33,055 nt of DNA from a bacterium. GTDB taxonomy: Bacteria > UBP6 > UBA1177. Position numbers and translations under genes: made by a program. The notes below the pieces were generated by a model. The model saw only the letters and a program-made list of their open reading frames with translations. It did not search any database and was not told the DNA's origin. The DNA lies in assembly GCA_017961325.1 (NCBI GenBank), contig JAGCXM010000022.1, positions 1-33,055 of the forward strand, given 5' to 3'. Shown in pieces: positions 12,045 through 33,055 of this stretch. Within the stretch, counting starts at the first letter, position 1; the number at the start of each line of letters is the position of its first letter.

Positions 12045-14162
12045 TCAAAGATTTACCTTCAAACCGATCCACGGCGTGATGCCGGCCGTGCCGTATTCGA
12101 CCGAATAGGCGTAATCGTCGTTGTCAAGCATATTTTCGATTTTCGCGAATATCGTCACATAACTGTTGATTTTGTAGGAAACTGCGAAATTGAGAATGAC
12201 AAAATCTTCAGCCGTAATAAGATAAGGAGTTTTCGGATAGTTGTAAACTTCGTCTTTACGCTTGCCCACATAGTTGAGCTCCAATGAAACATTCAGCATT
12301 TTCGCATAGTTATAGTTTAAAACGGCGTTGAATGAGTGCTTCGGTCTTCTTAAAGTCGGCGTTTTCGCCTTGTATTTTTCCCCTTTGTATTCGACAACTT
12401 TGTATTCCTGCATTTTGAAAATCCATGTGTATGCGCTTCTGAGACTAACTCCCCAGAACGGTTTCGTGTGAAAAGAGATTTCAAGTCCGTGGTTTTCGAT
12501 TCTGTATCTGTTTGAATATATTCCGCTTTTATCCAAATCGATGCTGTTGATCTTGAGTTCGTAGAAGTATCCGGCTTCAAGAAGGATTTTTCTGTTCACG
12601 AAATACTGCTGAACCGCTCCGTCGAATCCGTAAGCCGTTTCAGGCTGAAGTTCCTGATAAAGATTTGCGTAGCGGCTGAACCTCTGAAAAAGCGTCGGAG
12701 TCTTCGTTCCGCGGGCGAATCTCGCCTTAAAACCGAGTTCTACAGGCGTTTCGTAAGCCGCTCCGGCCGAAAAAGTGGGCTCAAAACTCTTTTTCGTCTC
12801 CTCTTGAAGCGGCTGATCAGTCTCTCTGTCGAGCAGCGAAATCTGATAGAAATTGCTCTGCAAGCGGCCTCCGGCATTGAGTTCGAGTTTCTCAACAGGC
12901 CTGAAAATGTTAAAGGCGTAGGCATCAAAACTTATGTCGGGATTTGGAACGAAATCCATATTGAAATAGCGTCCTGCTGAATAATCTTCGTAGTCTGCCG
13001 TCCCCCACTCCGCGCCGAAATCAAGACCGGCAGCAAGTTCATACCAGTAAACAGGAGTTACCGTGTTTTTCCAGTTGACTGCAAAAGTCATCGAACGGTA
13101 GCGGCTTTTCAAATCGCCGGCCATTTTACCTGAATCAGCCGGATCTTTATCACCGAGCGAGCTTAAAAGCATTGAAACATCAAACTTCAAGTTCCATATT
13201 TTATTGAATAAATTCGAATCAACACCAGTTTTTAAAAGCAGATTCCCGTTCAAAAGATTCCGGTTCGGATCATCCATTCCAAGCCCTGGTCCGTCGTCGA
13301 TTTCAGCTTTTGCGACATTGCCGCGGAGAATCAATTCCCAGGTATTGTCAGAATCGATGTCGACTCCGCCGCGGAAGTAGAGCGAACCTTTGATGACCGA
13401 ATCGTTGTCAGGCCTCTTCGCGTAGATATTTTCCTTAACTCCCTTGTATGAATCGGCCATCGAAATTCCTTTGGTATTGAAAAAAGAACCGCCGCCTGAA
13501 TAGAAAAAACGGTTTTTCGAGCCGCTTACATTCGCGCTGAAACTGGTCGTGTCAGGAATGTACCGGCTGCTGCTCATGTCAAGAACCGCAGTTGAAACAG
13601 ATGACGTAAATTTCGGTTTTCCGTGCCCTTTTTTAGTTTTTATGTCGAGAACTCCGGCAAGTGCTCCGCTTCCGTAAAGAACTGGCTGAGGTCCCTTTAA
13701 AAGATCTATTTTGGCAATGTTTTCAGGGCTTAATGATAAATCTGCAGCGCCGTTCGGACTAAGAGGATTGCGCATTTCTACTCCGTCAATCAGCACAAGA
13801 ACGTCTGCGCTTCTGAAACCTCGCACGAAAAGAAACTGCGACTGCCCCGTTCTTCCGTCGCCGTTGACATAGACTCCTGTCATCTCCTTGACCGCATCAC
13901 CCGTCGTAACAGACTGTTTTTCCTCGATTTCCGTTGCGTTAACCGAATCCTGCGCCGCCGCGGCGTCATTCGATGCCGTTTTTCTGCGTGAACCTTTGAC
14001 GATTATCTTGTTTTCTTCGCTTTTTGCTGCCTGTTCCGGTTTCTGCGAAGACGTTTCATGAAACGTCTCTACGTTTGCATCCGGTCCGGATTCATCTGCG
14101 AAAACAGTGCCGGTAGTGCCGATAAATATAAAAAAAACAAAAAATAATCGGAAAAATTTCAT
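12045..14162 (-). CDS. TonB-dependent outer-membrane receptor (BtuB-like)
   Basis: The product is 705 residues. It has a signal peptide (MKFFRLFFVFFIFIGTTGTVFA, cleavage near 22), a linker of about 30 residues, a TonB-box-like IIVKGSRR near 54, a plug domain (SVTTGDAVKEMTGVYV; FLFVRGFRSADVLVLIDGVE; LLKGPQPVLYGSGALAGVLDI) and a long beta-barrel with alternating aromatic strands ending in ITPWIGLKVNL. Such receptors import siderophores, cobalamin, sugars or metals using TonB-ExbBD energy; the ligand cannot be read from sequence. The plug motifs resemble the BtuB/vitamin-receptor branch more than large siderophore receptors. The ATG overlaps the stop of the upstream methyltransferase gene (ATGA), so the two are translationally coupled. 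Residues 31-39 (VETFHETSS) are encoded by a copy of a palindromic repeat also found at 16128-16155. No TonB or ExbBD gene is in the window. Confidence 0.93.
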   Translation of the reverse strand: MKFFRLFFVFFIFIGTTGTVFADESGPDANVETFHETSSQKPEQAAKSEENKIIVKGSRRKTASNDAAAAQDSVNATEIEEKQSVTTGDAVKEMTGVYVNGDGRTGQSQFLFVRGFRSADVLVLIDGVEMRNPLSPNGAADLSLSPENIAKIDLLKGPQPVLYGSGALAGVLDIKTKKGHGKPKFTSSVSTAVLDMSSSRYIPDTTSFSANVSGSKNRFFYSGGGSFFNTKGISMADSYKGVKENIYAKRPDNDSVIKGSLYFRGGVDIDSDNTWELILRGNVAKAEIDDGPGLGMDDPNRNLLNGNLLLKTGVDSNLFNKIWNLKFDVSMLLSSLGDKDPADSGKMAGDLKSRYRSMTFAVNWKNTVTPVYWYELAAGLDFGAEWGTADYEDYSAGRYFNMDFVPNPDISFDAYAFNIFRPVEKLELNAGGRLQSNFYQISLLDRETDQPLQEETKKSFEPTFSAGAAYETPVELGFKARFARGTKTPTLFQRFSRYANLYQELQPETAYGFDGAVQQYFVNRKILLEAGYFYELKINSIDLDKSGIYSNRYRIENHGLEISFHTKPFWGVSLRSAYTWIFKMQEYKVVEYKGEKYKAKTPTLRRPKHSFNAVLNYNYAKMLNVSLELNYVGKRKDEVYNYPKTPYLITAEDFVILNFAVSYKINSYVTIFAKIENMLDNDDYAYSVEYGTAGITPWIGLKVNL
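14045..14072. repeat. Palindromic repeat copy inside the TonB receptor gene
   Basis: This stretch matches the perfect 28-bp palindrome at 16128-16155 at 25 of 28 positions. The right-hand 23 bp (14050-14072) are identical, and the three mismatches fall in the outer left arm. A 20-bp core here is still a perfect palindrome (half-site AGACGTTTCA). It lies in frame, coding residues 31-39 of the receptor, between the signal peptide and the TonB box. Confidence 0.8.
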
Positions 14163-14788
14163 AATTTCAAACTGATTGTCAGTCCGTGACCTATAGGCAG
14201 AATCGTGCTGAAAAGTTTTTTGTGTGCGAAAACGGCGCGGTTGTAGTCGTGAGTGTAGTCCCCTAACCCGCTCCGCACTGTTTCAGTTACTCTGAAAAGC
14301 GAATCGTCCGCCGCGATGATTCCCCCTTTCTTGCAGAGTTTCACCGTCAATTCAAGAAGCATCGGGTATAAATATTTGCCGCAGTCCTGAAAAATGAGGT
14401 CGAATTTTTCACCTTTTTCGAGAAGTTCGGCAACTTTTGCTTCAGCCTTGCCGTGAACAAGTTCGATTATGTCGCCGAAACCTGACGCCGCTATATTTTT
14501 TTCAGCCTCGGCAAAAATCCTGTCGTGACCTTCAACCGTGATTATCTTTCCGCCGGTTTCTTTTAGTGCCGAAGCCATCCAGATCGCCGAATACCCGTTG
14601 CTCGTGCCGAGTTCGAGGACCGATTTGATCTTCTTCGCACGAATCAGAAAAACGAGAAATTTCCCTACTTCGATTTCAATCATCGGCTGAATGTCGTTTC
14701 TGCTTCTGTTCGATTTTTCAAGTCCGTCCAGAAACTCAGTATCATGTTTTATGAAATCCCTTAAATACTGCGCCGTTCTTGCATCCAT
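14159..14788 (-). CDS. SAM-dependent O-methyltransferase
   Basis: The product is 209 residues, the usual size for the O-methyltransferase/Methyltransf_24 family. The cofactor-binding motif I is VLELGTSNGYSAIWMA, followed by an acidic strand end (IITVEGHD) and LIFQDCGKYLYP, then a GGIIAADDSLF segment typical of metal-dependent, catechol-type O-methyltransferases. Two Asp residues (AADD) could be metal ligands. I take ATG 14788 (product MDARTAQYL) because GGGGAGCAGG precedes it; the frame is open further upstream to 14902, but that extension is Phe/Tyr-rich and not family-like. The TGA overlaps the ATG of the TonB receptor gene. The acceptor is unknown; coupling to a receptor gene might suggest a small molecule such as a siderophore or cofactor, but this is inference. 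Confidence 0.85.
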   Translation of the reverse strand: MDARTAQYLRDFIKHDTEFLDGLEKSNRSRNDIQPMIEIEVGKFLVFLIRAKKIKSVLELGTSNGYSAIWMASALKETGGKIITVEGHDRIFAEAEKNIAASGFGDIIELVHGKAEAKVAELLEKGEKFDLIFQDCGKYLYPMLLELTVKLCKKGGIIAADDSLFRVTETVRSGLGDYTHDYNRAVFAHKKLFSTILPIGHGLTISLKL

Positions 14789-14815
14789 AACCTGCTCCCC
14801 AAAACAAACCGCCGA

Positions 14816-14843
14816 TTTATAAAACATGGAGAAAAAAATCCAA
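14816..14843 (-). promoter_or_regulatory. Possible promoter for the methyltransferase-receptor operon
   Basis: Read on the minus strand, TTGGAT (14843-14838) and TATAAA (14821-14816) are separated by 16 bp, about 28 nt before the ATG at 14788. This is a by-eye match of moderate quality. Confidence 0.35.
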
Positions 14844-14880
14844 ATATTTTTGAAATAAAAATAAGTAAACCGCTCATTTC

Positions 14881-14908
14881 TTGACTCAAAAACGCCTCTC
14901 AATAGAAT
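14881..14908 (+). promoter_or_regulatory. Predicted sigma70-type promoter of gmd
   Basis: TTGACT (14881-14886) and TAGAAT (14903-14908) with a 16-bp spacer lie 33 nt before the gmd ATG. The short leader contains a TGCGTTT repeat and then GGAGG at 14931-14935. Confidence 0.55.
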
Positions 14909-14941: not shown

Positions 14942-16081
14942 ATGGCAAAAAAAGCTCTCATTACGGGAATTACCGGACAGGACGGCTCGTATCTGGCGGA
15001 ATTCCTTCTTGAAAAAGGCTATGAAGTTCACGGCATAAAAAGGCGCAGTTCGTCGTTCAACACCGACAGAATCGACCACATTTACAAAGACATCCACGAC
15101 AAAAACAGAAAATTCACGCTGCACTACGGCGACCTCACCGATGCTACGAACCTGATAAGAATCATGCAGGAGGTGCGTCCTGACGAAATCTACAACCTGG
15201 CGGCGCAGTCGCACGTCAAGGTATCGTTTGAAACGGCGGAATACACTGCGAATTCCGATGCTTTGGGAACCCTGAGGCTTCTTGAAGGAATCAAAATCCT
15301 GGGAATGGAAAAATCGACCCGCTTCTATCAGGCCTCGACTTCGGAACTTTTCGGAAAAGTTGCGGAAATTCCGCAGAGCGAAAAAACGCCGTTTTATCCA
15401 CGAAGTCCTTACGCGGCGGCAAAAATATACGCTTACTGGATAACGGTGAACTACCGGGAATCATACGGGATCCATGCAAGCAACGGAATACTTTTCAACC
15501 ACGAATCACCTAGGCGCGGTGAAACTTTCGTCACGAGAAAGATCACCCGTGCGGCTGCAAGAATCATTCTCGGTCTTCAGGAGATGCTTTACCTCGGGAA
15601 CCTTGACGCAAAGCGTGACTGGGGACATGCAAAGGATTATGTCAAGGCAATGTGGCTTATTCTTCAGCAGGACAAACCGGACGATTTCGTCATCGCTACG
15701 GGACGGACTTCATCGATCCGCGACTTTGTGAAAACTGCATTCGGGTGCGTCGGAATAAAAATCAAATTTGTAGGCAGCGGAGTTGAGGAAAAAGGAGTTG
15801 TCGAAGAGATTGATTCGACAGAACTCATGAAAATCACTGACAAAATTCATGTAAAAGAAGGCCAGCAGATAATAAGCGTCGATCCGCGCTACTTCCGTCC
15901 GACAGAAGTTGACATTCTTCTCGGAAATCCGGCGAAAGCAGAAAAAATCCTCGGCTGGAAAGCTGAAACAACAATGGAGCAACTCGCTGAAGAAATGATG
16001 TTTTCCGATATCGAAGAAGCAAAAAAAGAGGCGCTTCTCATCGGTAACAATTACTTTGTCCGTGAAAACTACGGCGAATAA
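14942..16081 (+). CDS. gmd: GDP-mannose 4,6-dehydratase
   Basis: The product is 379 residues. This short-chain dehydrogenase/reductase converts GDP-D-mannose to GDP-4-keto-6-deoxymannose, the precursor of GDP-fucose, GDP-rhamnose and related sugars for surface polysaccharides. The NADP-binding motif is [20 protein letters not shown] at the N-terminus, followed by the family-specific [16 protein letters not shown]. The catalytic residues are in QASTSELFG (Thr-Ser-Glu) and [12 protein letters not shown] (Tyr-x3-Lys). [16 protein letters not shown] binds the nucleotide. It is slightly longer than most homologues (about 345-370) because of extra residues around [11 protein letters not shown] near 310. 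GGAGG lies 6 nt before the ATG. It stands alone: no fucose synthetase or glycosyltransferase gene is adjacent, so its partner enzymes must be elsewhere. Confidence 0.97.
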
Positions 16082-16127: not shown

Positions 16128-16155
16128 GTAGAGACGTTTCATGAAACGTCTCTAC
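16128..16155. repeat. Perfect 28-bp palindrome, intergenic copy
   Basis: The half-site GTAGAGACGTTTCA is followed directly by its reverse complement. It lies between the convergent gmd and gspF genes. There is no T-run on either side, so it is not a classical intrinsic terminator, although a hairpin could still form in both transcripts. A near-identical copy is inside the TonB receptor gene at 14045-14072. Confidence 0.85.
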
Positions 16156-16175: not shown

Positions 16176-17405
16176 TTATCCGACAGCGTCGTTGAGCTGG
16201 AGAATCGGCATAACGACCGAAAAGACGATGAAGCCGATGACGCCGGCAAGGGCGACGATCATCATCGGTTCGAGCATCGAAGTAAGTTTTTCCATCGTGT
16301 AGGTAACTTCCTTTTCGTATGATGACGCCAGAGTTTCAAGCATCTCCTCAAGTTCGCCGCTCTGCTCGCCGATCGCTATCATCTGAATTACGATGGGCGG
16401 AAATTCGCCGCTTCTTTTGAGAGGAACGGCAATCGATTCACCCTCTTTGATGTTTTCACGGGCAACTCCGACTGCATTTTCAAGGATTTTGTTGTCGATA
16501 ATCTTCTTTACGATGTCTAGTGCGCTCAGAATCGGAACGCCTGAATGAAGAAGAGTCGACAAAGTCTGTGCAAAACGGCTGATTGCAACCTGTCTGTTTA
16601 CTCTGCCGAGGACTGGAGCATTGATTTTCACTCTGCTCCACCAGATTTCCCCTTTCGGGGTTTTGATATACTTGTTGAAAGCGACTATTCCGCCGAAAAT
16701 CATGATCGCGATGAGCCACCACCAGCTTCCGATGAAACCCGAAAGCCAGAGAAGGATCTTCGTCTGTATCGGCAGCGACATCTTGACGTCTTCGAACATT
16801 TTGGAAAGTTTCGGGATTACGACCGTGAAAAGGACACCGACGACCAGAACCGCAACGATCATCAGAACTATCGGGTAAGTCATCGCGCTTTTGACCTTGT
16901 TTTTGAGATCTACCTGCGATTCCATGAATCCGGCAAGTCTCATCAGAACTTTGTCAGTCGCGCCCGACTCCTCTCCGGCAGCAATCATATTGCAGAACAA
17001 GTCATCGAAAATATTGGGAAATTCCCTAGCGCTTTTACTAAAGCTGTAACCTTCGTTCATCTTTCCCTTGATGATGATTAGGGCATCTTTCATTATCGGA
17101 TTTTCCTGCTGCTGCGCAACCGCGTCAATCGCTTCGACAAGCGGAATCTTAGCCTTCTGCAGCGTCGCCAGAAGCCTTGTCATCGAAGCAACTTCGTCAA
17201 GCGGCACTTTTTTCGCGCCGAAAGAGAACATTTTCCGCAGAAAATCGAAACTGAAACCCTGTGAACCGGACTTTTCGCTGATCTCGGTGATGTAGTAACC
17301 TTCCGAAAGGAATTTCGTCTTGACCGCAGCCTTGTTAGGACACTCGATCGTCCCCTTCTTCTCCTTGCCGTTTGCGTCGACTATTTTATAGGCAAAAAGA
17401 GGCAT
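16176..17405 (-). CDS. gspF: Type II secretion inner-membrane platform protein
   Basis: The product is 409 residues, normal for GspF/PilC. It has an N-terminal region (MPLFAYKIVDANGKEKKG) typical of the family, then two homologous cytosolic helical domains (LLATLQKAKIPLVEAIDAV and AQTLSTLLHSGVPILSALDIV). Three membrane spans follow the usual layout: about 170-195 (PIVLMIVAVLVVGVLFTVVI), about 220-240 (WWWLIAIMIFGGIVAF) and the C-terminus (MMIVALAGVIGFIVFSVVM). GspF forms the membrane platform on which pseudopilins are assembled and contacts the GspE ATPase. Its ATG overlaps the gspE stop by one base (TAATG), showing tight coupling. It is the last gene of the gsp operon here; the pseudopilin genes gspG-K, which often follow, are absent, and the convergent gmd gene ends nearby. 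Confidence 0.96.
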   Translation of the reverse strand: MPLFAYKIVDANGKEKKGTIECPNKAAVKTKFLSEGYYITEISEKSGSQGFSFDFLRKMFSFGAKKVPLDEVASMTRLLATLQKAKIPLVEAIDAVAQQQENPIMKDALIIIKGKMNEGYSFSKSAREFPNIFDDLFCNMIAAGEESGATDKVLMRLAGFMESQVDLKNKVKSAMTYPIVLMIVAVLVVGVLFTVVIPKLSKMFEDVKMSLPIQTKILLWLSGFIGSWWWLIAIMIFGGIVAFNKYIKTPKGEIWWSRVKINAPVLGRVNRQVAISRFAQTLSTLLHSGVPILSALDIVKKIIDNKILENAVGVARENIKEGESIAVPLKRSGEFPPIVIQMIAIGEQSGELEEMLETLASSYEKEVTYTMEKLTSMLEPMMIVALAGVIGFIVFSVVMPILQLNDAVG

Positions 17406-31392: not shown

Positions 31393-32748
31393 TTAAAACG
31401 CGCAGTCAGTCGAAAAAGTTACATTTGTAGGTGCGCTTTCAAGTCCGTTTTTAGTTTCATTGAAATTGCCGCTGAAATCCCAGAAAGCTATCGTGTCATC
31501 ATCAGCGCTAAGTTGCGTCGGAGTGAAGTCTGCCGTATATTTTTCACTGCCTGAAATTCTGATCGAATCAATCAAACCTTTGAAATATTTTTTGCTGACA
31601 CTCCAAGAACTATAAAGGTTTGCACCGAGAACAAGAGGTTCGTTGACTTCTAGCAGATTCATTGACCTCCTTGGTTCATACGTTTTTGAATTTACTTGTT
31701 TGCCGTTCACATATAGAGTACTTTTATAAGTTGTTGATTGAGCCACATTTGTGTTGTGAACAAGAGCAATATGAGTCCAGCCGCCGGAAAATTCATTGAA
31801 TGTCCCGTCAACCTGAAGATTTTCTGTAGTGCTTGTGGAAGTGGATTTATATGTTGTTGCACCTGTAACTGTATAGGTAACGTTACCCCATGACTGCTGC
31901 TTTCTGTATCCCGTTAAAACATAAGGAGGATTTTCTGAAGTTCCTTTGCGAAGAATAGGAGTATAATCGGAAGTCAAATCTCCTGCATCCTGCTTAATCC
32001 AAGCTTCAATCGTCCAAGAATCTGAACCGAGATTCAGCAGGTCATTGCTTGCAACTTCGATTCTTGACGATTCTCCGTTGAAAACTGCCGCGCATTCCTT
32101 AGGTTGAGGTTTCGGATTGCATTCGCCATTTTCATAAACGTAATCATTTATGCACTTGTATTGACAAGGCTGCGGTTCACCGTCACCGTACTTCGTCGTA
32201 TAAGTTACGACATCCCAATTACCCTCTTCAAAATTGTAATACATGTCATAGCCGGAATCACCGTTCCACTCGGAATTTGCAGGTTTGTGTTCCGTTTCAC
32301 AGTCCGCATGAATATAACATTTCTTAGCTTCATCAACACCGTCTGCACCGTTCCATGTTCCGCCTGCCTTATTACATTTAATTTCCGGAGAATCGGGGAT
32401 TACGTCTTCGTCCTCTCCGCCGGCCGGTTCATCATCCGTTGAATCGTCGTTTGCCGGCTCTGAGTCAGAAGAATCGCCTTCATTCGGCTCCGTATCAGAA
32501 GAATCATCATCTGCCGGCTCTGAGTCGGAAGAATCGTCATCCGCCGGTTCTGAGTCGGAGAAATCATCGTCAACCAGATCCCCGTCTTCCGTATCGGTTA
32601 AATCGGAATCATCTTCTTCAACGTCTTCGTCCGTCTCCGCCTCTTTATCTCCTTCATTTTCAGGAAGAACCCTTTTAGCTCCATTTACAGAATCACACGC
32701 GGCAAAAAAGAACAGAAGAACTAACAAAAAACAATTGAACCATTTCAT
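31393..32748 (-). CDS. LamG-like (concanavalin-fold) surface lipoprotein with acidic repeat linker
   Basis: The product is 451 residues. The lipoprotein signal MKWFNCFLLVLLFFFAAC has lipobox Cys18. It is followed by a strongly acidic linker (30-118) with five imperfect 10-residue repeats of the SDSEPADDDS type. Then comes a Cys-containing module (about 124-225: CNKAGGTWNGADG ... CYIHADC ... PCQYKCINDYVYENGEC) that may be disulfide-bonded. The C-terminal 230 residues are a LamG/laminin-G-like jelly roll: AAVFNGESSRIEVA, DSWTIEAWIK, WTHIALVHN, LYVNGKQV, FKGLIDSIRIS and TIAFWDFSGN. Such domains bind carbohydrates or proteins; no catalytic residues are seen. ATG 32748 has GGAGGG just upstream, inside the codons of an earlier ATG (32760). 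A partial homologue lies upstream on the same strand. The linker probably extends the lectin-like domain from the outer membrane. Confidence 0.88.
   Translation of the reverse strand: MKWFNCFLLVLLFFFAACDSVNGAKRVLPENEGDKEAETDEDVEEDDSDLTDTEDGDLVDDDFSDSEPADDDSSDSEPADDDSSDTEPNEGDSSDSEPANDDSTDDEPAGGEDEDVIPDSPEIKCNKAGGTWNGADGVDEAKKCYIHADCETEHKPANSEWNGDSGYDMYYNFEEGNWDVVTYTTKYGDGEPQPCQYKCINDYVYENGECNPKPQPKECAAVFNGESSRIEVASNDLLNLGSDSWTIEAWIKQDAGDLTSDYTPILRKGTSENPPYVLTGYRKQQSWGNVTYTVTGATTYKSTSTSTTENLQVDGTFNEFSGGWTHIALVHNTNVAQSTTYKSTLYVNGKQVNSKTYEPRRSMNLLEVNEPLVLGANLYSSWSVSKKYFKGLIDSIRISGSEKYTADFTPTQLSADDDTIAFWDFSGNFNETKNGLESAPTNVTFSTDCAF
32410..32559 (-). repeat. Five imperfect 30-bp tandem repeats coding acidic SDSEPADDDS units
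   Basis: Residues 64-113 of the LamG lipoprotein consist of five 10-residue units: SDSEPADDDS twice, then SDTEPNEGDS, SDSEPANDDS and TDDEPAGGED. The first copies are nearly identical in DNA (CTGAGTCGGA-AGAATC pattern on the plus strand), and the last is the most diverged. Slippage could change copy number. Confidence 0.8.
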
Positions 32749-32841: not shown

Positions 32842-33055
32842 TTATTGTTTGCAGTCAGCTGAATAAGTTATGCTGTCAGCAGGTACGCCGTTAAGATGGT
32901 TTTCCGATGAATCATCTGCGTTGCCGCTGAAATCCCAGAAAGCTATCGTGTCATCGCCGCCGGCAGAAAGTTTTGCGGGGGTGAAGTCCGCTGTGTATTT
33001 TGCGGTGTTGGAAATCTTTATTGAATCTATAAGTCCTTTAAAATACCTGCCATCA
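32842..33055 (-). CDS. LamG-like protein, C-terminal fragment (cut by window edge)
   Basis: A minus-strand frame enters from the right edge and ends at TAA 32842-32844, giving the last 70 or so residues. It reads DGRYFKGLIDSIKIS, then KYTADFTPAKLSAG, DDTIAFWDFSGN and a final TYSADCKQ. It aligns along its whole visible length with the C-terminus of the neighbouring lipoprotein (KKYFKGLIDSIRIS, KYTADFTPTQLSAD, DDTIAFWDFSGN, FSTDCAF). The two genes therefore form a tandem pair of paralogues on one strand, 93 nt apart. A 35-bp block coding the AFWDFSGN region is identical in DNA. The N-terminus, and so the presence of a lipobox and linker, cannot be seen. Confidence 0.85.
   Translation of the reverse strand, partial: DGRYFKGLIDSIKISNTAKYTADFTPAKLSAGGDDTIAFWDFSGNADDSSENHLNGVPADSITYSADCKQ

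Follow-up and report, generated by a model that had tools for sequence, protein, structure and literature searches.

How did a short palindromic repeat come to lie in frame within the gene of a TonB-dependent receptor, and does it belong to a family that moves? The window, i.e., the whole stretch of 33,055 nucleotides that was analyzed, is contig 2 of a 2.35-Mb rumen MAG of the phylum UBP6, which is 97.9% complete. It carries on its minus strand (12045-14162) a gene for a BtuB-like receptor of 705 amino acids. The Plug domain of the protein was recognized by Pfam PF07715 (E=1.9e-22), and the NCBIfam model TIGR01779 (TonB-B12) matched with E=6.8e-42, yet with a score under the cut-off of that model. 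A cobalamin riboswitch is located upstream of the BtuB-like receptor in all three orthologous loci tested (L033, L044, and L047); a search of the window for this riboswitch gave no match at the gathering score. In the window, a methyltransferase-like ORF (14159-14902) lies upstream of the receptor gene and overlaps it, and the upstream neighbors at this locus (methyltransferase and GDP-mannose dehydratase) are missing from the sister loci.

The in-frame element occupies positions 14045 to 14072, where the letters of the window are GCGAAGACGTTTCATGAAACGTCTCTAC, and is read from the minus strand as codons 31 to 39, VETFHETSS. On the coding strand it consists of V31 (GTA), E (GAG), T (ACG), F (TTT), H (CAT), E (GAA), T (ACG), S (TCT), and S39 (TCG), followed by a single C. 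The GTAG foot at the 5′ side of the coding strand is intact, while the other foot is degenerate, with TCGC in place of CTAC. The preliminary description had placed residues 31 to 39 between the signal peptide and the TonB box, in agreement with the translation, in which the element follows the signal peptide (~residue 22) and precedes the TonB-box-like NKIIVKG (~residue 51). Its match to an intergenic palindrome (16128-16155), given there as 25 of 28 positions, was reproduced; the run of contiguous identical bases had been put at 23 and is in fact 24 (14049-14072). The element would lengthen the disordered tether between the signal peptide and the TonB box, and the insert probably has little effect on transport by the receptor.

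The intergenic copy, as read directly, is a perfect 28-bp palindrome without strand, GTAGAGACGTTTCATGAAACGTCTCTAC, and sits at 16128-16155 between the convergent genes 14942-16081 (plus strand) and 16176-17405 (minus strand). It conforms perfectly to the definition of a GTAG “double-foot” REP, a palindrome of 20 to 40 bp with GT[AG]G at its 5′ end and C[TC]AC at its 3′ end. As single-stranded DNA it forms a hairpin of −10.8 kcal/mol, and none of 200 shuffles was as good. The 14-base half-site, with two or fewer mismatches, has three matches in the window versus 0.23 expected, a number reached by 0 of 100 shuffles. In the whole genome, 32 copies of the 22-base core were counted with three or fewer mismatches, while the reversed 22-base core, used as a control in the same search, gave none. 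The repeat is thus not confined to the two copies compared in the preliminary description, which had named absence from the rest of the genome as grounds for giving up its claim. Additional copies with different middles were found with a looser pattern, in which the arms were fixed and the middle was free. All 15 genomes of the genus contain the repeat, with 1 to 38 copies each, and it was found in 0 of the 26 genomes searched outside the genus. Many intergenic copies are placed between convergent genes. The palindromes at three loci (L092, C26:42455; L093, C29:12504; L106, C38:7639) have other cores; each is preceded by a TATAAT-like box and followed by a ribosome-binding site, which would place it in the transcript as a 5′-UTR hairpin. 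A literature search on the arm sequence found no relevant paper among the 20 listed.

An initial Pfam Y1_Tnp search of the genome was negative. Once the cluster of palindromes on contig 47 was read, it revealed a gene for a REP-associated tyrosine transposase (RAYT, or TnpA-REP), an ORF of 201 amino acids near the contig end (C47:68674-69276, minus strand), and the absence of a Y1 transposase was therefore rejected as a false negative, the RAYT being split by an internal palindrome. A Y1-type transposase gene, which the preliminary description had suggested looking for, is thus present, and it is bracketed by the palindromes studied here, at C47 68601 and 68650 on one side and at 69302, 69415, and 69480 on the other. 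The gene carries its own in-frame palindrome at C47 68898, between the HUH and Tyr motifs. Its product matches NCBIfam NF047646 (REP_Tyr_transpos) with E=3e-15 in two stretches separated by the internal REP; the score of 56.4 bits is below the curated cut-off of 80, and the score against Pfam Y1_Tnp, 22.8, is just below the cut-off of 23. All 14 aligned RAYT homologues match NF047646, and none of the HUH, W, and Tyr residues varies. The motifs are NHIH (HUH), W163-Q164 (WQ), and YIENNV (Tyr), and the distance from HUH to Tyr is 99 amino acids in this RAYT (G000) and 92 to 141 across the genus. Every complete RAYT gene of the genus has a palindrome inside, while RAYTs with short spacing (53 to 70 amino acids), sampled by means of the family model, have no internal palindromes clearly above chance, in a comparison of long and short spacing that is exploratory and built on a sample picked by similarity. 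The AlphaFold model of the RAYT has a mean pLDDT of 73, with values below 50 in the loop that contains the internal palindrome, and it matched IS200/IS605-type transposases in Foldseek. The match to 4ER8, the REP-bound TnpA-REP of Escherichia coli (E=3e-5), had an rmsd of 3.6 Å, the lowest among the Foldseek matches with E<0.001. In six congeners (G001, G002, G005, G011, G012, and G013), several of them incomplete, palindromes but no RAYT were detected, and dispersal may thus be largely past.

A RAYT tree, computed after the palindrome insert had been cut out, contains three clades with support values of 100/99, 100/99, and 99/99, each of which has a single palindrome core inside and beside the gene. 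Clade 1 (the genome studied here and G003b) is paired with core TTTCATGAAA, clade 2 (G007a and G008, with G004 placed by the protein tree) with core TTTCCTGAAA (= TTTCAGGAAA), and clade 3 (G003a, G006, G007b, G009, and G014) with core TGACCTGACA. Coevolution of REPs and RAYTs is known from other bacteria (PMC2817692), and the pairing of RAYT clade and core in this genus is, as judged from sequence, coevolution of the kind described elsewhere. G009 is a mismatch, with nine perfect CATG-core copies versus a detected RAYT in the TGACC clade. The RAYT loci of G006 and G009 (L108 and L113) share 98% identity across 1.2 kb, flank included, compared with 81% for their TonB genes, a similarity that probably stems from recombination between species. 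Near-identical RAYTs in different species were considered as proof of recent jumping and rejected, since several of the loci are syntenic and the match between G006 and G009 runs into the flank.

Very probably, the segment in the receptor gene is a GTAG double-foot REP, an element of the form GTAGAGACG-N10-CGTCTCTAC, that was dispersed by the cognate RAYT of contig 47. The RAYT, a HUH/Tyr single-strand transposase, would bind the single-stranded DNA hairpin through the GTAG foot, cut beside the hairpin, and join it elsewhere, as the biochemistry of other TnpA-REP proteins suggests. Cleavage of REP single strands has been shown for the TnpA-REP proteins of E. coli, Stenotrophomonas, and Marinomonas (PMC8266576), and by analogy with these proteins we infer that the RAYT of contig 47 may cleave REPs as well. 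Insertions into genes would survive only where the open frame V-E-T-x-x-E-T-S-L falls in a flexible linker.

About 11 of the ~41 distinct copies located in the genome are in frame within long coding frames. They reside in the TonB receptor, a SPOR-domain protein (two copies), FtsY, an HlyD-like adaptor, an M23 peptidase, a 288-aa protein (two copies), a DUF6029 protein, a 295-aa protein, and the RAYT itself. The ten copies outside the RAYT share a single reading frame, V-E-T-x-x-E-T-S or close variants of it, because the second frame opens with TAG where the GTAG foot is intact and the third usually hits TGA in the middle of the element. In-frame copies lie mostly within Lys/Glu/Pro-rich linkers, and, by approximate TOP-IDP values, their flanks are more disorder-prone than random sites in the same proteins (0 of 20,000 draws as extreme).

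Presence and absence of an intergenic copy were judged at C33:46691, since synteny was unusable for the 16128 copy owing to the upstream neighbors missing from the sister loci. Here (L084, in the genome studied) and in G009 (L200), palindromes are found at the 3′ end of one gene, which looks like a diguanylate cyclase gene, at different offsets, while five congeners are without a palindrome at the orthologous site. Both palindromes provide the TAG stop of the gene and shorten the acidic C-terminus that the congeners have. The DUF6029 gene contains the in-frame copy in nine genomes of the genus (the own genome included) and a partial copy in G007; the copy is absent in G014, G010, and G002, where it could have been deleted. 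In the TonB receptor, the palindrome is present in 11 of the 15 genus genomes, again including the own genome, and a degenerate trace is left in two; the receptors of two basal congeners (G005 and G011) and of two other genera have no insert. On the receptor tree, the insert in 13 species is accounted for by a single gain, after which the core type changed. The TonB insertion is old, being ancestral to the 13-genome clade, and hence is not evidence of recent movement. The comparison of orthologous receptors, proposed at the outset as a check on mobility, gave a mixed answer for this one site, with occupied or traced sites in 13 of 15 genomes and empty sites in the two basal congeners and the two other genera. 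In all three genes examined (TonB, DUF6029, and M23), one and the same site has different core types in different species, which implies insertion followed by mutation, conversion, or replacement. G014 carries one doubled palindrome, whose core differs (ETHHGT..ETHHGTSLQ), in both its TonB gene (L039) and its unrelated M23 gene (L140), at sites where its close relatives have other cores or none. As to the family as a whole, its dispersal, the further in-frame copies, the occupied and empty orthologous sites, and the cognate Y1 transposase flanked by the repeat support the initial view of a small mobile repeat that coding sequence tolerates, and mobility of the palindromes is supported at the level of sequence comparison.

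Other readings of the palindrome deserve consideration. It could be a selfish repeat like the Rickettsia palindromic elements, spreading without a transposase of its own; palindromes in frame in unrelated proteins, as described for Rickettsia (PMC3733652), would fit, as would the first, negative Y1_Tnp result. That search, however, overlooked a real RAYT, and the GTAG/CTAC feet, the bracketing of the RAYT by the repeat, and the co-variation of clade and core make spreading of this kind most improbable. Numerous intergenic copies between convergent genes, together with those situated downstream of a TATAAT-like box and upstream of a ribosome-binding site at C26:42455 and C29:12504, might instead point to a regulatory or signal sequence, such as an operator, terminator, or uptake sequence, with incidental presence in genes. 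We find such a role hardly credible: the inner ten bases vary freely, no T-run follows the palindrome, the one intergenic site tested is not conserved between species, and convergent placement agrees with that published for REPs (PMC3733652).

The later fate of the segment is a separate matter. Tentatively, it may by now be an ordinary linker kept for protein function (length, charge, or TonB tether), the palindromic DNA being a relic of one ancestral insertion that subsequently changed by mutation or by gene conversion among copies; this concerns later fate only and is compatible with a REP origin. The one gain that explains 13 species, a TonB site that stays occupied while its core changes, and the different doubled palindrome of G014 in two unrelated genes are in line with a retained linker, but at other sites related species differ in whether a copy is present, and only degenerate traces of the insert persist in the TonB genes of two congeners. 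It seems doubtful that, in this genus, the linkers between signal peptide and TonB box, membrane anchor and M23 domain, and signal peptide and DUF6029 barrel repeatedly serve as sites of landing or conversion, with REPs of one subtype taking the place of another in frame as species diverge; if they did, the RAYT system would continually rewrite the disordered tethers of envelope proteins.

The in-frame REP phenomenon itself is already published, and the system described here is of a known kind. According to Di Nocera 2013 (PMC3733652), GTAG REPs occur inside many genes, favor convergent and unidirectional intergenic sites, and supply TAG stops with their ends. Quentin 2018 (PMC6006769) assigns to TnpA-REP subclass 2.4, which equals Bertels RAYT group 4, double-foot REPs, in-frame REPs between HUH and Tyr, the motifs NH[IFV]H (HUH), WQ, and YIxNNP (Tyr), and a median HUH-Tyr distance of 88 amino acids; for subclass 2.4 systems, REPs in frame both in other genes and within the RAYT gene have been published. 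Internal REPs in RAYT genes, which we had considered as a new finding, are thus already on record. Like the GTAG double-foot REPs of both sources, the elements of this genus are dispersed 28-bp palindromes that begin with GTAG and end with CTAC, often lie between convergent genes, provide TAG stops, have in-frame genic copies, and bracket a RAYT. The host phylum is different, since UBP6 is not among the REP hosts named in the accessible parts of the two papers, and 1 to 38 copies per genome is a modest number for GTAG double-foot REPs. The RAYT resembles subclass 2.4 in NHIH, WQ, the long HUH-Tyr distance, the in-frame REP between HUH and Tyr, and the flanking double-foot REPs; its Tyr motif keeps the Tyr and NN, with the final P changed to V. 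As for the likeness to Rickettsia palindromic elements drawn in the preliminary description, the mode of occurrence is shared, i.e., short palindromes in frame in unrelated proteins, while membership is contradicted by the GTAG/CTAC feet and the RAYT: RPE-4 and RPE-6 carry the CGTC tag, and repeats of the CGTC class lack an associated transposase (PMC3733652). The genus, with 15 genomes in which in-frame sites are either occupied or empty and with three RAYT lineages that have matching palindromes, offers a compact comparative set that could serve to study the conditions under which in-frame REP insertions survive and the possible exchange of copies by conversion.

The same outer arms are found on cyanobacterial plasmids (L314, L315, and L316), in frame in genes for a Planktothrix type I PKS (VETLHATSLQ), a Halotia NRPS (VETFHETSLQ), and a Nostoc CHAT-domain protein (VETFYETSLQ). 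The Halotia peptide is nearly that seen here, though from a different phylum. The arms also occur in 109 stretches of viral contigs, some of them in frame in long candidate ORFs. Elsewhere in the window, an exact 35-nt direct repeat is located at 31466-31500 and 32921-32955, and a 30-nt tandem repeat (32425-32574) would code for an acidic, serine-rich stretch.
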